Both the position numbers and the translations under genes were made by a program. From assembly GCA_030052745.1 (NCBI GenBank), contig JANBVO010000012.1, forward strand, positions 1 through 64,000: a stretch of DNA of 64,000 bases. The letters are read 5' to 3'. This DNA comes from Pleurostoma richardsiae. Its lineage: Eukaryota > Ascomycota > Sordariomycetes > Calosphaeriales > Pleurostomataceae. The notes beneath the pieces were generated by a model, which saw nothing but the letters and a program-made list of their open reading frames with translations, did no database searches and was not told where the DNA came from. Below are positions 1-58,265 of this stretch, in pieces (within the stretch, counting starts at the first letter, position 1; each line of letters begins with the position of its first letter).

Positions 1-852
1 TTTGAAAGAAATAAAGATTCTATTACTATTCACCAAAATAAATATTTAAAAACTATAAAAGAAAAATATAACAAACAGAATTTAATACCGGTATCTACTC
101 CAGTAGAACTAGGAATAAAACTAACAAAAACAAGAGATGAAGATATAATTCCTCAAAAAGAAATAACTATATATCAACAACAAGTTAGAGCTTTACTATA
201 TCTAGCAATAAAAACCAGACCGGATATATCTTATACTATTAATTTATACGCTAGATTTATATCTAAACCAAATAATACTTATTTTCGGGCCTTAGACCGA
301 ATTTAGAAATATTTAAATCACTATAATAATTTAAGAATAAAATATAATAAAAATAATAAACTACTATTTAAAAGATATAGCGATTCTAACTAGGGAGGTG
401 ATTTATCTTCAAGAAAAAGCACTTCTGAATATATTTTCCAACTAAGAAATAATATAATAAGTTAGAACAGTTCATTACAAAAAACAGTTGCACTTTCTAA
501 TTGTAAAGGTAAATATATAGCTTTAAAAGATACAATGAAAGAAAATATATATTTAAATAACGTTATTCAATATTTAAATAAAATCCTAAATTTAGGAATA
601 AATAATAGTATACCAGTAATTTTAACAGATAACCAAGCAGCCTTAAAATTATCTGAAAATACTGAATTTCACAAAAGAAGTAAACATATAGATATATCTT
701 ATCACTTTACAAGAGAAAGTGTACAAAATAATAAAGCAAAAGTAATACATATTCCTAGTAAAGAACAACTAGCTGATAGCTTTACAAAAGGCTTAAATAT
801 AAATAAACAAAAAACTTTTATAGAAAAACTAGGTTTAATTAAAATAAAATAA
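1..852 (+). pseudogene. Ty1/Copia retrotransposon pol, 3' end (RT tail and RNase H), RIP-damaged
   Basis: One reading frame runs from base 1 to a TAA at 850-852 and is broken by three TAG stops (304-306, 391-393, 463-465). It reads as the end of a Copia polyprotein: a TRPDISY motif of the reverse transcriptase tail, an RKSTSEY motif at the start of RNase H, then DNQAALKL, EFHKRSKHIDI and the PSKEQLAD motif near the C-terminus. Only the last 105 codons (from 535) are free of stops. The 5' part of the element lies outside the window. All three stops sit where the family has tryptophan, consistent with TGG-to-TAG changes caused by RIP (CpA to TpA on the other strand). Base composition is very AT-rich, unlike the genes further on. 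It is a dead relic. Confidence 0.9.
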
Positions 853-938
853 AATAACGGTATTTAAATATAGTCCACTGTATTAGAATATCAAAATAAA
901 TTTTATAAACTTAAAACAGTACACTGTAATAAGCTTAC

Positions 939-945
939 GGGGGGA
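939..945 (+). other. Polypurine tract of the Copia element
   Basis: A short G-run ending in A lies directly before the TGT that starts the LTR and 86 bp after the pol stop. This is the position expected for the plus-strand primer of a Copia element. Confidence 0.6.
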
Positions 946-1294
946 TGTAAAATATATTACCTTTTTAGGTTTAATAAAACTCTAAAACAGTCAAAACAAC
1001 TTTAAAACACTAGAATAGGCTCCAACTGAATTCTAGGTAATCTAAAACAACTATATCCACAAATATTGAATTCCAAAACAACTAAACGTTCCGGAATAAA
1101 GATAACCGGTTTTATATTTCGGTAAGTAAGATATCCGGTTTCATATCTCGGTAAATAAGATATCCGGTTTTATAACTATTACAAATCCAAATTCAATAAG
1201 AATTATATATATCTAGAAGAAAGACTGTAGAATTAGAAAGATAGTTAGATAGTATTGCAATTTGAATCTATTTAACCCCTTACCTACTTTAACA
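946..1294 (+). repeat. Copia LTR (3' LTR of the element at 1-852)
   Basis: This 349-bp segment begins TGT right after the polypurine tract and ends ACA, the usual TG...CA ends of an LTR. Its last ~290 bp recur in the same orientation at 3290-3588, which supports it being a repeat unit. It contains short internal direct repeats around a TATCCGGTTT core (about 1100-1170). It still holds several CCGG sites, so it is less mutated than the second copy. Confidence 0.75.
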
Positions 1295-2990
1295 TAAAAT
1301 AATACGTCAATTAACTATAACGGAAAAACTAAAGAAAACTTAAACCGTAGCTAGTTTACTTACTAAAAACTTCTTTAAAACCCGTACCCGTTTAATAAAC
1401 TCGTATAACGTATTTAATTACTCCTTACTAATATATTATATAATAATAAAAAAAACGACTTAAAAATCCTATTAACGTTCTTATAAAAAAAGTTAGCCCG
1501 AACGTAAATTATTACTAAACCGACGAAAATTCGAAAATTCGAAAAGCTTATAGAAAAAAATAACGAAAGTAAAACCTTCTAAAGAACCTTAACGTATTAT
1601 ATTTATTACTACGATAAAATAACGAAGTAAATAAAAAAGTTAAAATAAATATATATTAAATATTCGAAACGTTTAATAAATAAATTCTACTTAAACTTTT
1701 AATTTATATATACTAATCGAATATTCGAAATTAATTTTCTAATTAAATCTACATTAATAAAATTACGAAGAATATAATATTAAAGTAATATCGTTTAAAT
1801 AGTAAAAAATTAACGTATCGTTAATAATTCGTTAAATATTATTCGTTTTTATTAGTTTTTATTAATTTTTATTTTTATAAATAATACGGTTTAAAACTAA
1901 TGTTTTTATAAACTAAAAACCGGCTTTACGAAAAACTTTTAAGCTTTTTCTAATTAAAATCGCTGTATTACAGTTAATGATTTTATTACTTTTTATACGA
2001 TTAACGTAAATAAAAACTATTGTAAATTTAGTATTTTAAATAATTTAAGCTACTTTTTTATACTTTTTAAAAATTTAAACACCGTTAATAAATAATTAGT
2101 AACGAACTAAAGGTTATATATAAGTTTATACTATACGTTATTATTTTTATAAGTATAATAACGAACTTTAAAGTTATTTATAAAGTAAAAATCGATAACT
2201 TTTAAGTTTTTATAACGTATACTAATATAATTAATATAAAATAATTATAAAACGTTAATCGAATATTTACTTTAATGTTTAAAATATTACGAAAAAATAA
2301 TACTTTATATAAATTAAAAAGTTCAATCGTTCTTTTTTACTTAACTTCATTAAAAAAAAATAAGTTATAAAACCTTAACGTAATTTATTTTATAACTATT
2401 TAACGAAGCGGAAGAATAAACTAAAGAGAAAAAAGTTAAGGAAAAAAGAAAATTTATAAAAAAAAAAAAAAACTTATAATTACTTTTATACTTTAACTAG
2501 CCTTTAAAAAGGTTCTAAAAACGAAGTTCTAATTAAATAAAAAAAAAAGGTCAAAGAAGAAGATAAAAATTAACAAATCTAATTACCTAAATAAACGAAC
2601 TTTTAAATATATTAACGATAAACTTAATCTTAAATAAAGAAAGTTCCTACGAAGGTAAAAGGCCGTAAGAAAGTCTTTACGAAAACGAAAAGCCGTAAAA
2701 GGGTTTTTACGAAAGCGTTTAACTATAAATATTATAACGTAAGACGAAGAAAAAAACTACGTACTATTACAAACTAATATTAAAACCGGATAGCTATAAA
2801 AAAACCCCCGAATTACGAATAACGAAATAATTAACTATACGGCTTAGAATTAAATCATAGACGGATATTAATAATAAGATAAGTTACTAACTTTTTTTCT
2901 TTATAAATATAAAAGTTTTTTAATAAAGATAATCAGCGAAAAGATTACTACTTAAAAACTTTCAATTAAACGTTAGGAGCTAACGTTCTT
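1295..2990. repeat. AT-rich RIP-degraded block, unclassified
   Basis: About 1.7 kb of very AT-rich sequence with no usable ORF. Surviving G+C is largely in ACG/CGA contexts with few CpA or TpG, as expected after heavy RIP. No protein domain can be recognised in any frame. Because it lies between two LTR copies and ends in a purine-rich run (2991-3000) followed by LTR-like sequence, it is probably another retroelement, but this is inference. Confidence 0.5.
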
Positions 2991-3289
2991 AAAGGGAGGG
3001 ATAGTATAAGAGGGACGTTAAAAAAGTAACACCTAGCCCATTTATATAAGAAAAAAGCCTAGGCCGCGATAGCTTAAGCTCGGGTAAAGTACTTAACTAA
3101 GTATATACCTAGGTATATACGGAATGTTGTAACTAGCCGGGCTCTTTTTTAGGACCCGAGGCTTGTATAAGTTCCTTTTAAGGCCGTTCGCCGGACGTTC
3201 GGAGAATAACCGGTAAGTTAAAGTTTTACAACTAAAAATATACTACCTTTTGTGTTATATTTCCTTTCTTTGCTTTGTGAATATATTAA
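2991..3289 (+). repeat. Purine tract plus LTR-like segment of a second retroelement (tentative)
   Basis: A purine run (2991-3000) is followed by about 290 bp whose G+C is higher than its surroundings. That segment includes GC-rich pieces near 3060-3080 and 3180-3210, and ends where the truncated Copia LTR begins. The arrangement resembles a polypurine tract followed by a 3' LTR of a different (perhaps Gypsy) element. No second copy is present in the window, so the call rests on layout alone. Confidence 0.3.
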
Positions 3290-3588
3290 TTTCTTTATAA
3301 AAACACTAAAATAAGCTTTAGTTAAATTTTAAGTAATTTAAAATAACTATATTTATAAATATTAAATTTTAAAATAACTAAACGTTTTGAAATAAAAATA
3401 ATTAGTTTTATATTTTAATAAGTAAAATATCTAACTTTATATTTTAATAAATAAGATATTTAATTTTATAATTATTATAAGTATAAATTCAATAAGAATT
3501 ATATATATTAAGATGAAAAACTATAGAATTAAAGATAGATAGTAAGTATTGTAATTTAATTTTATTTAACTCCTTACCTACTTTAACA
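3290..3588 (+). repeat. Second, 5'-truncated and more heavily mutated copy of the Copia LTR
   Basis: This segment aligns by eye without large gaps to 1003-1294, from an AAAACACTA start to the shared TACCTACTTTAACA end. Most differences are C-to-T or G-to-A relative to the first copy: every CCGG core of the first copy has become TTAG, CTAA or similar. The first ~55 bp of the LTR are missing. It is a solo or truncated LTR left by the same family. Confidence 0.75.
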
Positions 3589-4127
3589 AATCAGAACAGC
3601 GTACCTTTCTCCTTTTCTCTTTTCCTTTCTTTAACCGAGTATAGCTTACGCTAAGCCACACGTCTACGCTACCCTCCGTGTCGAGCCTTTACACCCAGTA
3701 CCCGTAGCAGTGGTTGTCTAAATCGCGTGTACTTTTTGTACTAGGTCTTTACTGTAATTGGCAATGAGCCTGTTGTACTTTCTCTCATAATGCCAAGTCA
3801 TTGGTAATGTAACTGTGGAGATCTAATCTAATCAATCAATCAATCACATTAGATTGGAAGATGTCACCATCCGTTTCCCCCCAAGTTCCCAAAAGCAACC
3901 TCTCCTGACGTGGTCAAGTTGATGTAACCTTCTTCGGGTCCACAAGCTGCCGACTTCGGCAGCATACCGGCCACCAGGCCAATGTGCAGTATAAGACGTG
4001 GGCCTTTAACACACTGCCCGTGATGGAGCGAAGGGTTTTTTTTTCCCAACCGTGTTCAATACTTGACGCTCCTCGGTATTTTCAAGTGGCTCTTCTCCTG
4101 CATCTATACCACTGGCAGTGTAACACG
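3589..4127. other. Region upstream of the siderophore transporter
   Basis: Composition returns to normal here. A four-unit AATC microsatellite lies near 3831-3847. I see no ORF with family features and could not find a convincing GATA-factor iron-regulation site (ATCWGATAA) in it. It presumably holds the promoter and 5' leader of the gene at 4128. Confidence 0.4.
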
Positions 4128-12289: not shown

Positions 12290-12850
12290 TAAACGTGATT
12301 TTTATTAATAAACATAATCATTAAGAAAATGATAAGAAGCTAATTTATATAATTATATATAATTAAATAAATTTTAATTTTAATATTTAATTTTATTTCT
12401 TATTACTAAATGTTATATATTCTAAGCGCTTCTTAGAAGAGCACTTAGAACTAGCTAGCCTTATATAAGGCATGCCTAGTAGATAAAAATACTAGCTAGA
12501 AAATCAAGCTCTTAATACTATATTACTTAATATTTTAACTTAAACATTATACTTTAATCTATATAAACTCTTATATAATTAATCTTAACTGCCTATATAC
12601 TAATCTAATTAAGAAGCTTTAGCTTATTATAGTACTAAATATTAATTATAAATAATATTACTTATTTATTATTTATAAAATATTATAATATAAAATAAAA
12701 AAAATAAATTTAATTAAATACTTAATATATTTACTTTATAAATAATACTTAAATAAAATTTAAAATGTAATATTTAAAATAAAATTCACTTTATATAATT
12801 AAGTAATATAGAATTAAAAAAAATTATATACTATCTCTAGTACAGAAGTA
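12290..12850. repeat. AT-rich island, probable RIP-mutated repeat remnant
   Basis: About 560 bp of strongly AT-rich sequence with abrupt edges, no ORF, and many TTAA/ATTA/TATAA words. A less degraded core lies around 12420-12500 (TCTAAGCGCTTCTTAGAAG region, a short imperfect inverted repeat). It differs in composition from both flanks and resembles the damage seen in 1295-2990. I cannot assign it to an element family, and no terminal repeats were found. Confidence 0.5.
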
Positions 12851-13249
12851 CTTTCACATATGTAAAAAGTCGCTGATGACAATACGTGCGTGCACTGAAA
12901 CACCTACACGCTCTTCTAACATGCTCATATAATAACGCCATAAAGTATCGCGGCGATTAGATCATGATGACTTGCATTGAACTGTCTAGTAATATATGAC
13001 TGTGGGGCAAAGTATTAACAACCACCAATCAGACGTAGCCTTCCTGAAGACCGGTGACTTGTATCTCAAAAAGACAAAACTTCAACGCAAGCAATCCGGA
13101 ATCAACTCGTATTTCGACCGACACGCGCAACTGCACAAGGAGGAAGCAAGATGGACGTAGGGGCAATCGAACAACCTGGAGCCCGGAACAACCCCATGAG
13201 GTGAAAAAACCATTGTTCATTCGCACATCCGAGGATACGCTAGACACAT
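12851..13249. other. Region 3' of FKS1
   Basis: Normal-composition sequence downstream of the FKS1 stop codon; it should include the FKS1 3' UTR. The short ORFs here are on either strand and show no family features. Confidence 0.4.
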
Positions 13250-52903: not shown

Positions 52904-55900
52904 ATGGTATGTATCGAGTAGCTCTCGTCCTCTCCAAAAACTCTTATTCCCGTCAATAGCCCTGTCCTGGGTTCCTGCCCAACCCTGACCGGTTCTCTGT
53001 CTCGCCGTCCTCCGACGGCAAACTCCCCCACCCCTTCCCCGCAAGCGCGGGGCGGCCCGCAGAGATCGTTCCGTTGTGCGGCGAGCTGTCCTTTCGGCAC
53101 GGACATTCCTTGGCCTAGAAGACTCATCAAAGGCCTGAAGCCCAGCTGACAACATAAACTTCTGTCAATGACAATAGGGCTCCGTCAACAAGCAGATAGC
53201 CCGCTACGAGTGCACTGCCGTCTACACGCACCCGAATGCCAAGTCTGATATAGTGCTCGTCCATGGCCTCAACGGCGACCCTCAGAGGACATGGACGGCA
53301 CAGAATGGCGTCTTTTGGCCGGCTGACCTCCTTCCAGACTCTCTGAAGGACGCCCATGCCAACGTCCTCGTGTATGGCTATAACGGGGATGTCTACTCAA
53401 CTCGTAATGACAGGTACGGTCTGCCCCCCGCGCCCGCGTGTCGTTGGCGAGACACGTAGCCCCGGTCCCCACCGACCTTGCTCACACATCTTGGACTGAC
53501 TGGATATGATGCCCTTGGTGCAGGAGCGCGAGCGACAATTATATTCACCATCATGCGCAGACCTTGGTCACCACCCTCACACTCTATCGCAAAAGCGAGG
53601 AGTCCACCAGAAAGCCCATCATCTGGGTGTGCCACAGCCTTGGGGGTATTCTCGTGAAACGCGCCTTGGAGTACTCCAACGACCTGCGAGCGAGTCATCA
53701 TGAGGAGTATCGATCTGTCTATGTATCTACGTACGGCATTGTTTTCCTGGGGACGCCTCACACGGGCTCAGGTCTCGCGACATGGGGCCGCGTTCTCCAG
53801 ACTATGTCCGATATTGTAGTTCCCAAGAAGCTATTCGAGTCTGAGCCAGTCCTCCTCAAGACCCTCAAGCGGGACAATGAGACACTACAGAACATCAACA
53901 GCCATTTTCTCGATATCTACCAGCGTTTCAAGATCCACGTGGCTCATGAAAACGTCAAGACAGATATCAAAGGATCCAGGTGAGGCAATTCCAGGGCCTC
54001 TCACCGTAGTATCGCGGCGATGGCCCGTCTGATGCTCAGTTTGACTGGGCAGGGAACCGGAGAGGAGTGCTAATCGGCTGACACATTACAGAGTTCTTGT
54101 GGTCGATCCGACTTCTGCGAGCCCGCAACTTCCCGGCGTCACGTATTATGGAATCGAGGCGAATCATTCGGGCATGTGCAAGTTTGAAAGTCGCGAGGCT
54201 CCGGGCTATCGCACCGTGTCCACGGCCCTCCGCGACTGGGTCCGAGAGGCCCCAGCTGTAATTCAAGTCCGCTGGGTGGTCGAGGAAGAGGACCGTTTAG
54301 CAAGGGCAATGCAGGAGGTTGACGAGCGCATGCGGCCATTCGTGAGTGTCACTACGTCTCCTGTGCGGTGGAGGAGAAACGAGTCTAGGTGGGCGGACGG
54401 TGAGCGGCGGTGGCCGTTGCACCCCGAGCTCTTTGGACCCTTGACACCACTCAACAATGCTCCCAGACAGAGATTGACAACTAGGTGGGCAGATGAAAAG
54501 TTCAGCTGGGACTTCGCAGCCTACAACACGCGGTAGGTTCCAGCCTCATTACATCCATACTCTGCGCTCCTGCCGGTCGCGAACGCTCTAAACTTTGACG
54601 CGAAATATGGTCTAACTTGGGTTGTTTGTTCTAGTGGAGCGAAGTAACGACATAACAGCATCCGCAGTACAGCAAGATAGTCTCAGTGCGCCATCACCTG
54701 TGCCTCTTCTGACTTTGCCTTCTTCAAATCACGACCCACATAACCAGCCGAGCGCTGAGACGCAGAACGAGCCCCTCTTCGTCCACCCTGAGCCCTTCCG
54801 CCCGAACTCCTTCTTTGTCGGCAGGCAAGGGGAGCTCCAGGATCTTCATAAGATGCTCATGGATGGGCAACGAAGAGCCGAAGGCACGTCGGCTGTCCTG
54901 ATTCAATGTCTCCCTGGAGGAGGCAAGACTCATCTGGCGAGGCAATATGCTTTCCAGCACATGTCAGATTATCCTGGTGGGGTGTATTGGGTAACGGCCA
55001 AATCCCTGCACGAGATGGAGTATGGGTATTGGCGCATTGCGAAGACTGAGGCTATGCGAGGTTTATCGGAGCAAGACGGTATCGATCATGCTACCGATTC
55101 GGAGATGCTTGTGGAAGGTGTACGCAGGTGGCTCAACGGTTTCGACGAGTGGTTACTCATCCTTGATGGCATCCTTTTCGACACCCCTGGGGTGCAAAGA
55201 TTCATCCCGGACGCAAAAAACACGAGCCTGATCTACACGTCGACGCAACGGGCCGTTACTGGGGACCATCACTTCGACAACCCACAGATTATGGAACTAA
55301 CCCTGCTCGGGCCACAAGAGGCACAGGAACTGCTGCTCTTAGAAATGGAGAAAAGGAGACCATGGACTCAAGATGACCGCAGCCGCGCCTATGAACTTGT
55401 GCAGCTCATGGGCCGACTGCCGCTCATGATACATGTCACGGCTCAGCACCTGAAGGCAACAAGGGAGCCCTTGGCGAAATATCTGAATTCTTACAGGAAC
55501 CGCCCCAAGGTTGGCAGTCTACCTGCCTACAACGCAGTCTGGGACCAGCTTCAACGCCGAGGCGCTGTAGCTGCTCTAAATCTGATGTCAATCTTGGTTT
55601 TCTTCGACCAGCACGTCCCTGTCGAGATGGTCTCCCTCGGTATGCTCTTCTTTCGCGGTCTTGCACCGTTAAATGACGTGGCTTGCCGTCAACCGCTAAC
55701 GCCAGCCTAGGACTTGGCGCGCTGGACAAGAGGACACCTTATAAAACATGCGATGCCTCTCATAGGAAGGCAACTCTGACCAATACTCTTAAGGTCCTCA
55801 TCGCCTTCGCCCTGGTCGAACGAACAGAAGCTGTCGATATCTCCCCAACGAGCTCTCGGAGTTCAAAGAGGAGCCTCGACCGGACAGTCGACACATTAGA

Positions 55901-58265
55901 CTTGCTAATGATTCATAGCGTGGTGCAGACCTTTTTCATCGAGTCACTGGCAGGAGAAAAGCAGCATTACTTCTGGCTGGAACGGGCATCTGCAGTGTTC
56001 TGTCGATCGTTCGATGAAGCCAAAAGGCGCATGAATGAGGACCCTGTCATTGGCCTACCGGACGACTACCGGCGGTTCACCATCCATGGGAGGAAACTCG
56101 TGGAACATCTTGACCGCTTCGAGAAGAAATGCCCTGAGCTGCTCTCTGCTGCAAAGACAGGCATGGAGGATAGACTTGGTCAGATCCAGCTTGCCGTTCA
56201 CCAGCTATCTCAGACTCACCAGGCTGGTTCAGTGGAGGAATACAATCATGCTCCTCGGTTGTCGGTCTTCGAAAGAAACAACAGTCTGACCGAGACGGAC
56301 TCAGAGCCGCCCAGCCACCACAGCATAAGCGAAGAGGATCGATGGACAAAGGAACAGGATGATCGCAACATATTCCATCAGTCTCCTTCCACATACGCGG
56401 CACAGGACTTCAATCCTTACCACTGGCACATTCCGTACCCACACAGAGATATTATCCCCGGGGAACCGTATCCTGCCGATGAAGACGACAAGACGGGGAT
56501 ATCTACGCCGAAACCGGCACAGGTGGAGCATATGGCATCCAGGGCCCAGAGTGCGGACGTAGACCGCAATCACCGGGTTGTGAAGAGAAACGAAGGTAGA
56601 CGATACCGCGATCGCGCTGGCGCATGGAGGGACCGCAGTGTGGGAGACCCTCGTGTTAGTATGAGTCGGGAGGGTGTAAAGGGAACTGTGGTCCCGCCCG
56701 GCAGTTCTGCCACAGAAATATCAGTACTCACAGCTGAGAGCCAGGCAGAGTCAGCCTTGAATAGGATCAAAATGGGATCTCTGCGTCCCCGACGAGGCAG
56801 TGTGGTGGTCCAAGAGAAAACCAGAAGCCACTCTGAGTCCGAGCAGGCGAGACCACGACTCATTCTTGGAAAGGGTAGCTATGCCGACGCACTACCTGGA
56901 GAGACGGCCATTGATTACACCTTATCCCCGCCAGAGTTCTCGAATGCCTTCGCGGCCGGGTCCGCAACAATGTCCACCTGGACTGCAGCGACCCTGCGGC
57001 GACTGAAACGGGGCGCCGCTCAATCGCGGACCGGGCGTGCAATCCGTCGGCAGTCAGCAGGGACCGAAGTCGCCAAAAACGAGGACAAGGACCGCACTGC
57101 TATGACAAAAGACGGCAGCACCGCTGAGCAGACGCCGATTTCCATGTTTCAGGGCACCCGCTCCTCAAGGTCTAGTCCGGCTCAATCATCATCGACATTC
57201 TACTCCCCAGAAGCCTCCGCGGGTATAAGCGGGTCTGGCAGACCGTCCCAGGGGCACCCTGCGGGCTTCCGCGCCGGGAACACCCAAGCATACGACCCTG
57301 ATCTTAGTCGATCAGGCTCCTTCAGCCTAGGCGACGAGCCGATGGCAATGTCTCTCCCCATCCTGCGACGAGAATACCGGTCCACGGCCGATATATGCCC
57401 GCCCAAAACCTTGCAGTTTCGCTGCGCAAGTGGCTATACGTCCGAGCCCATGTCACGAGACGCCAGCGGTCATTCCAGTGGCCAATCGCCATTCAGCCCA
57501 GGTCTCGCTGGGCCGGCTGGTTCATATGCTGTGGTATCAGAGAGTTATCACGCTACCCGCCACTCTCTACCGGTCATTGCTGGTCCTGCGAACGCAATCC
57601 CGGTAAGTGTTCTCGGAGCGCGGGATCGACGACCGTCGGTGGTTGAAACGGAACCCAGCCCACGCCTGGATGCAGTGTTTCCGGAAGTACACACATCGTA
57701 CCAGAGGTGGGAAGATAGGTACAAACGATGCCTCGGGGCCGACTCAGGAGGTCTGTCTGCCGATAATACCATTGACGCACGATCAAAGTCATTTCAACGG
57801 GCTGGGAGAGGTGGTGACCCAGCCGGTCAGACGAGGTCTCAGTCTCTCTCGCCCAGCTACGGTCCACGAGTGCCGCTGGGCTTTGGCATGTCCTGGGACA
57901 GATCAGGCCTAGAAGAGGCCTTCTCAGACGGAGATGTTGTCGTGGGTGAGCAGATGGCGCGGTCCGGCTCCGGCGGCATTAAGCTGCCTGACGGGAGCGT
58001 CGTCGAGTTTGGAGACGTCATCAGCCCGTGCCTGTCGAGCCCAGAGCTGGCGGAAGGCAGGGAAAGCATCAAAAGACATCCCGTACCGCCGAATCTGTCG
58101 AATAGTGCTGTCGGTTTAGGTATCAGCGAGTTTGGGCACTGGAAGTGGCACCTTGCACCCACTCATGCAGACTCATCTGCATATTCGGTGCTTCGTTCTC
58201 AAACTTCATATAGGAGCTTCTATACTCTTGCTCCCTGCTTACCTAGGATGGGGAATGTTAAGTGA
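52904..58265 (+). CDS. NLR-like STAND protein: alpha/beta-hydrolase (SesB/LipA-type) plus NB-ARC
   Basis: Candidate intracellular receptor whose nucleotide switch would control an esterase head, as in fungal NLRs linked to non-self recognition. Proposed exons: 52904-52906 (ATG only), 53178-53413, 53524-53979, 54092-54532, 54645-55639, 55711-58265; 1561 aa. The hydrolase spans about 10-250: oxyanion HGLNG at about 30-34, nucleophile Ser118 in VCHSLGG, then FLGTPHTGSG. The NB-ARC has LPGGGKTHLA (Walker A, about 469-474), WLLILDG (Walker B, about 549-553), YTSTQR (sensor, about 576-581) and GRLPL (about 635-639). A winged-helix and helical part follows to ~880. Residues ~890-1561 are Ser/Gly/Arg-rich and disordered, with no WD40, ankyrin or TPR units visible. 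The exon 4/5 junction needs an AAG acceptor; the other joins fit well. The exact start is uncertain. Confidence 0.82.

Follow-up and report, generated by a model that had tools for sequence, protein, structure and literature searches.

A probable SesB-like hydrolase/NB-ARC protein of the NLR type in Pleurostoma richardsiae, with altered residues in its nucleotide site

The first 64,000 nucleotides of contig JANBVO010000012.1 (forward strand, assembly GCA_030052745.1) of the ascomycete Pleurostoma richardsiae, hereafter called the window, contain at 52904-58265 on the plus strand a predicted gene in which a putative SesB-like serine hydrolase precedes an NB-ARC domain, a winged-helix region and a long tail, and in which three positions of the nucleotide site depart from the other NB-ARC sequences of the same genome. 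The gene can be read as six spliced exons with 1520 codons and no internal stop, so that the coordinates given in an original prediction for this stretch held good, and the motifs quoted there (HGLNG, CHSLGG, P-loop, Walker B, sensor region and GRLPL) were all found on the plus strand. Exon borders were inferred from sequence alone and give the following features:

52904..52906, plus strand: exon 1 as inferred, the start codon alone, followed by the intron 52907-53177 (271 nucleotides, GTATGT...TAG)
53178..53413, plus strand: exon 2, first part of the SesB-like hydrolase with the HGLNG oxyanion-hole motif (53262-53276)
53524..53979, plus strand: exon 3, nucleophile elbow CHSLGG (S118; 53630-53647), GTPHTGS (53750-53770) and the acid E222 (HENVK, 53945-53959)
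54092..54399, plus strand: exon 4 in model A, end of the hydrolase with H257 (ANHSG, 54159-54173) and linker; extends to 54532 in model B
54635..55639, plus strand: exon 5, linker, NB-ARC domain and first half of the winged-helix region, with P-loop CLPGGGKT (54907-54930), Walker B LLILDG (55153-55170), sensor-1 region IYTSTQR (55231-55251) and GRLPL (55411-55425)
55711..56219, plus strand: first part of exon 6, second half of the winged-helix region, MHD-like MIHSVVQ (55908-55928) and the helical segment RKLVEHLDRFEKK (56091-56129)
56220..58265, plus strand: remainder of exon 6, tail of about 680 residues without Pfam match, stop codon at 58263-58265

All five introns (271, 110, 112, 235 and 71 nucleotides, in order) read GT...AG, and a CTRAY branch-like site lies at most about 32 nucleotides from the 3' end of each, these sites having been located with provisional borders, four of which were one base out. 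Exon 2 is immediately preceded by an in-frame TAG codon, and model A has its next methionine at residue 174, past the catalytic serine; a spliced upstream start is therefore needed, which may be some other upstream ATG than the one at 52904. The intron between the hydrolase and the NB-ARC part can be drawn in two in-frame forms, namely 54400-54634 (model A, 1520 residues) and 54533-54644 (model B, 1561 residues). Model A is preferred for its acceptor, a TAG with CTAAC about 23 nucleotides upstream, whereas that of model B reads AAG.

A predicted alpha/beta-hydrolase of the SesB/LipA type occupies residues 1 to about 310, an assignment that draws on relatives in the own genome, on a PADLOC model and on the catalytic triad, not on a direct comparison with Nectria SesB. 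The spliced hydrolase found own-genome relatives down to E 8.7e-32, with at least 40 matches at E up to 1, three of which are the window's own exons, and the best of the others (contigs C104, C43, C60 and C126) are 32-36% identical; the PADLOC model DUF626_VIII matched it at E 5.5e-15, and a sequence search of PDB returned nothing useful (best E 0.32). S118, E222 and H257 fall in columns that are invariant in 5/5 fungal sequences (S105, E209 and H244 of the alignment, the fragment starting at residue 14), and the histidine of the HG oxyanion motif is present in four of the five rows, the window's among them. A scan of bacterial contigs gave 150 stretches encoding hydrolase relatives, of which 80 were kept. 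Sixty-three of these, after 17 with short frames or partial matches had been dropped, were aligned without the window's sequence; H104, S105, G107, G108 and H238 proved invariant and E208 conserved at 90% or more, these residues being matched to those of the window by motif. With the serine, acid, histidine and oxyanion motif in place, the domain is predicted to be a serine hydrolase, and the earlier proposal of a SesB-type hydrolase with conserved catalytic residues on a STAND/NB-ARC core is upheld. The Pfam search suggested along with it was borne out in part: exon 5 matched NB-ARC with 28.3 bits (cut-off 23.5), whereas DUF676 on exon 3 alone reached 19.9 bits, just below its cut-off of 20.3.

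A six-frame search of the own genome with the NB-ARC profile gave 14 matches, and the absence of the window's gene among them agrees with a divergent domain; the NCBIfam model FxSxx_TPR scored 89.2 bits across 275 residues, far below its cut-off of 300. For a comparison of residues we used the 18 own-genome NB-ARC matches besides the gene itself (23-33% identity), some of which are partial and two of which (L040 and L042) are near-copies. The first P-loop residue is cysteine in the window (C426) and G in 13 and A in one of 14 other rows; the residue after the Walker B aspartate is glycine (G513), with N in 14, S in two and H in one of 17 rows; and the position of the sensor-1 arginine is held by threonine (T538), with arginine in 15/15 rows. 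At the third P-loop position, the window has proline (G 11, A 2 and P 1 of 14). The window's gene retains the P-loop lysine and the P-loop T/S (16/16 rows each), the Walker B aspartate (17/17), a GLPL-type motif and an MHD-like histidine, and its Walker B has no acid at +3. In NB-ARC proteins, the residues that normally stand at the start of the P-loop, behind the Walker B aspartate and at sensor 1 take part in hydrolysis and in the sensing of the gamma-phosphate. Judged by its residues, the domain does not appear to be a canonical NB-ARC ATPase switch, which would combine a P-loop GxxxxGK[ST], a Walker B D followed by D/N, a sensor-1 Arg, GLPL and an MHD-like His. The switch had originally been described as complete, and this stands for the P-loop lysine, the first Walker B aspartate and the GLPL-type motif, but not for the first P-loop G, the Walker B +1 residue and the sensor-1 Arg; that it looks intact can no longer be maintained, given that the window departs from the genome's remaining NB-ARC rows at three positions of the nucleotide site. 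On the best reading, the switch would be degenerate or unusually gated.

It is somewhat unlikely, from our point of view, that the gene encodes an ordinary, fully working SesB-like/NB-ARC NLR in which the altered residues represent tolerated variation and ADP/ATP exchange is normal. The retained P-loop lysine and threonine, Walker B aspartate, GLPL-type motif and MHD-like histidine would agree with such a protein, as would the recurrence of noncanonical P-loops among fungal NLRs, which is described in the available part of PMC4986451. However, the three departures occur together, and the window's residues are present in none of the 14, 17 and 15 other rows at those columns.

Two side observations concern the rows and loci of this comparison. 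L040 (G000:C117:17035-17694) and L042 (G000:C65:3141-3797) are near-identical NB-ARC matches on two contigs, the latter near a contig end, and would represent a recent duplication or allelic copies. A hydrolase/NB-ARC-like locus on contig C80 (L134:366-4878; G000:C80:229365-233877) has the noncanonical Walker B LDHLILEE and a 1005-residue frame without repeat match.

Four other loci of the genome, on contigs C43, C1, C24 (near 554 kb) and C80, pair the hydrolase with an NB-ARC domain in the same order, the NB-ARC match on C80 being weak (E 0.028). TPR were found in two of the four and no repeat match in the other two, the scan of C1 and C80 being confined to frames that cover the NB part or lie downstream of it. 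The paralog on C43 (G000:C43:684048-687344, 1099 residues) reads hydrolase, NB-ARC and TPR in one open frame. It resembles the window's protein in the hydrolase (36% identity over residues 21-286), in the NB-ARC domain (31%) and in a winged helix with an MHD-like motif, and differs from it by its own GLGGVGKT, ADN and TTR motifs and by a TPR array. Because four other own-genome loci share the domain order, one of them in a single frame of 1099 residues, it is unlikely that the hydrolase and NB-ARC exons are two separate transcripts. That the model has wrongly joined two neighbouring genes is likewise very improbable in the face of these loci, even if the joining intron (235 nucleotides) exceeds three of the other four and has two in-frame forms, and even if methionines 305, 312 and 408 precede the P-loop, so that a separate start would be possible. 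At the locus on C1 (L034 and L053, G000:C1:982278-986855), the hydrolase and NB-ARC matches are accompanied by two long downstream frames without Pfam match at E 0.1, the last of which ends in a Ser/Gly-rich part; this is possibly a second repeat-free member.

In a MAFFT alignment with three own-genome paralogs, the winged-helix similarity, which includes MIHSVVQ, crosses the exon 5/6 junction; C43 and C24 align well across it with the histidine in register, C1 only partly. As the winged-helix alignment spans the junction, exon 6 belongs to the NB-ARC gene, and its winged-helix part gave no Pfam match at E 0.1. In the paralog on C24 (551787-553517), a segment like RKLVEHLDRFEKK leads into TPRs, whereas that of the window leads into the tail of about 680 residues, in which S, A, R, G and P are abundant. 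No TPR, ankyrin, WD40 or other Pfam match was obtained in exon 6 at E 1 or in its two parts at E 0.1, and exon 6 searched against the own genome found itself alone below E 0.01 (next match E 0.02). Since no C-terminal repeats (TPR, ANK, WD40, HEAT) matched, we do not file the gene as a canonical tripartite NLR. The share of order-promoting residues is 0.209 in the tail, 0.225 in the linker and 0.31-0.33 in the hydrolase, NB-ARC and winged-helix parts.

A chance open reading frame was rejected as an account of the tail, the frame that holds it being open for 862 codons and the GC content of 56001-58000 being 58%. Phospho-regulation of the tail was found to be unsupported by motif counts against 2000 shuffles: R..[ST] occurs 14 times versus 11.9 in the shuffles (560 of 2000 reach 14), RR.[ST] three times versus 1.1 (171 of 2000 reach 3), [ST]P 12 times versus 10.4 (666 of 2000 reach 12) and a 14-3-3-like motif 0 times versus 0.26.

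The class of fusions to which the gene belongs by its predicted domains has already been described in fungi, and the gene would be a new member of it. A LipA/SesB-NB-ARC fusion appeared in the literature in 2005 (PMC1325252), the SesB-like domain is one of the commonest N-termini of fungal NLRs (PMC4986451, PMC9815663, PMC12258605), and in the Sordariales TPR is the most frequent NB-ARC partner (PMC12258605), in each case according to those parts of the papers that were available; the label 'LipA and NB-ARC domain-containing protein' is in use (PMC8306183). In the accessible parts of PMC1325252 (2005) and PMC4986451 (2014), the fusions consist, as in the window, of a putative serine esterase followed by NB-ARC. 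Published SesB-like/NB-ARC NLRs such as Pa_2_10340 carry TPR, as far as PMC4986451 was available, whereas none were matched in the window's gene, and a further difference lies in the three nucleotide-site positions, which depart from the NB-ARC rows of the own genome, the published members being compared by description only. Likewise compared by description, PLP-1 of Neurospora crassa (patatin-NB-ARC-TPR) has in common with the window's protein a lipase-type effector on an NB-ARC core; it differs in that the effector is a patatin and not a SesB-type alpha/beta-hydrolase, that TPR are present and that its function has been tested (PMC12881547, in the part available). No report on this particular gene was found in the open-licence literature.

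The likeness in layout to bacterial STAND proteins, which had been pointed out before, was supported by the bacterial hydrolase relatives, which head NB-ARC-TPR, NACHT-TPR and AAA_35 proteins. Pfam domains were surveyed in 20 of these 80 loci, picked from the longer reading frames (other long loci, e.g. L071, L094, L095, L098, L106, L109, L125 and L131, were left out), and six of the 20 had a P-loop NTPase above the curated cut-off, namely L068 (NB-ARC and TPR), L076 (NACHT and TPR) and L065, L075, L107 and L116 (AAA_35). L114 showed TPR and an nSTAND1 match below cut-off, and the remaining 13 comprised seven with TPR and no NTPase match of this kind, one with WD40, one with PIN-associated domains and four with hydrolase-type families only. 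L068 (Moorena, 979 residues) has the same hydrolase family and domain order as the window's protein and 29% identity to its NB-ARC exon in a two-sequence alignment, but it is bacterial and has GMGGVGKT, LDD and TSR motifs and TPR. As an observation of its own, L065:4950-7286 and L075:4842-7277 are single-chain proteins in which a SesB-type hydrolase and a TIR domain accompany an AAA_35 NTPase, that is, two putative effectors on one switch.

On plasmids, 23 records matched the hydrolase. Among the 20 listed, seven are labelled as ABC-three component system and one each as NB-ARC, AAA-like and tetratricopeptide protein; the 'ABC-three component system protein' genes encode a hydrolase of the same family (28-33% identity), a comparison based on record labels and the hydrolase match only. 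No relative of the NB-ARC exon was found on viral contigs, and neither this exon nor exon 6 matched a PADLOC model at E 1, where only the hydrolase matches; the gene is thus not predicted to be a known bacterial anti-phage STAND, as judged by an NTPase match to a PADLOC model. That the same hydrolase family heads bacterial NB-ARC-TPR, NACHT-TPR and AAA_35 proteins fits a toolkit common to fungal and bacterial conflict proteins.

We consider it likely that this is a gene for a fungal STAND/NLR-type protein of the SesB-like (LipA)/NB-ARC class with the hydrolase as its output; that its switching is altered is a more tentative part of this explanation, to which we give a little less than an even chance. 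The hydrolase would be the output enzyme, probably cleaving a lipid or another ester, and the NB-ARC/winged-helix core would restrain it. Clustering of the core would then bring the hydrolases together and let them act, with harm to the cell or signalling inside it as the outcome. Because the three nucleotide-site residues are changed, switching may follow some other course than ordinary ATP hydrolysis with sensing of the gamma-phosphate; the core would probably still bind nucleotide via its lysine, and the trigger would be a partner, possibly acting through the tail. One could further speculate that a live hydrolase has been kept while gamma-phosphate sensing and the repeat sensor were lost, and that partner binding via the long tail rather than an ATP cycle switches the enzyme, in which case the protein would be a sensor-only or constitutively primed receptor; this combination as a whole seems quite unlikely to us. 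A comparable logic is found in degenerate sensor NLRs of plants.

Several observations weigh against an NLR-type protein with altered switching. The NACHT form of Walker B, hhhhD[GAS]hDE, includes D followed by G (PMC12258605, in the part available), and therefore this change may be tolerated. An alignment shift of two residues could place R540 at the sensor position, and a sequence search of PDB with the NB-ARC exon gave as its top match NRC4, at only E 0.0034. Codon usage scores only -0.042 bits per codon in exon 4 and is weak in the three pieces of the tail (-0.042, -0.081 and -0.089); the tail's frame is ahead of the two other plus-strand frames in each piece, but in the last one it is surpassed by a frame of the minus strand that contains 10 stops (-0.038). 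FoldIndex is mixed along the tail, which is hence not clearly disordered, and basophilic kinase sites show no enrichment there relative to the shuffles.

SesB-like hydrolases belong to the commonest effector domains of ascomycete NLRs, but the available part of PMC9815663 calls their connection with cell death 'more indirect'. If a member keeps its enzyme residues while its switch is altered and repeats are lacking, it would offer a dissection of the class made by nature and help to show whether the hydrolase depends on ATP-driven assembly.

Around the gene, 20 reading-frame pieces were scanned, some of them parts of one gene; Pfam matches at E 1e-5 were obtained for 17 pieces, including glucan synthase, GH17, mitochondrial IF-2, a ribosome biogenesis factor, an ariadne-type ligase, VHS, FHA and an oxysterol-binding protein. 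As judged from these Pfam names, which are no proof of conservation, the neighbourhood agrees with a core-genome position. It is in this setting that a reused, degenerate receptor has to be weighed, whose hydrolase would serve lipid metabolism or housekeeping beside a remnant NB-ARC domain. The conserved hydrolase residues, the altered switch, the lack of matched repeats and the neighbours, which we judge to be mostly housekeeping by name, are compatible with such a protein; we nevertheless regard it as unlikely, as no stop interrupts the NB-ARC/winged-helix frame, which can still be recognised, and neighbouring genes are no guide to function. A receptor for allorecognition (heterokaryon incompatibility), a role put forward in the original prediction, has a precedent in Neurospora PLP-1, which causes incompatibility death via its patatin activity and the ATP-binding motif of its NB-ARC domain, as stated in the available part of PMC12881547. 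For the window's gene, this role appears very unlikely, since no repeats were matched and no HET, HeLo or similar match was found at E 1e-5 in the 20 neighbouring pieces, which cover part of the window.

ARAGORN found no tRNA in the window. Two AT-rich blocks lie at 1-3600 (22% GC) and 12300-13000 (20% GC). The first has a bias like that of repeat-induced point mutation, with a TpA/ApT of 1.41 and a (CpA+TpG)/(ApC+GpT) of 0.34, the corresponding values of the NLR gene being 0.64 and 1.2, and the bias of the second is milder (1.22 and 0.76).

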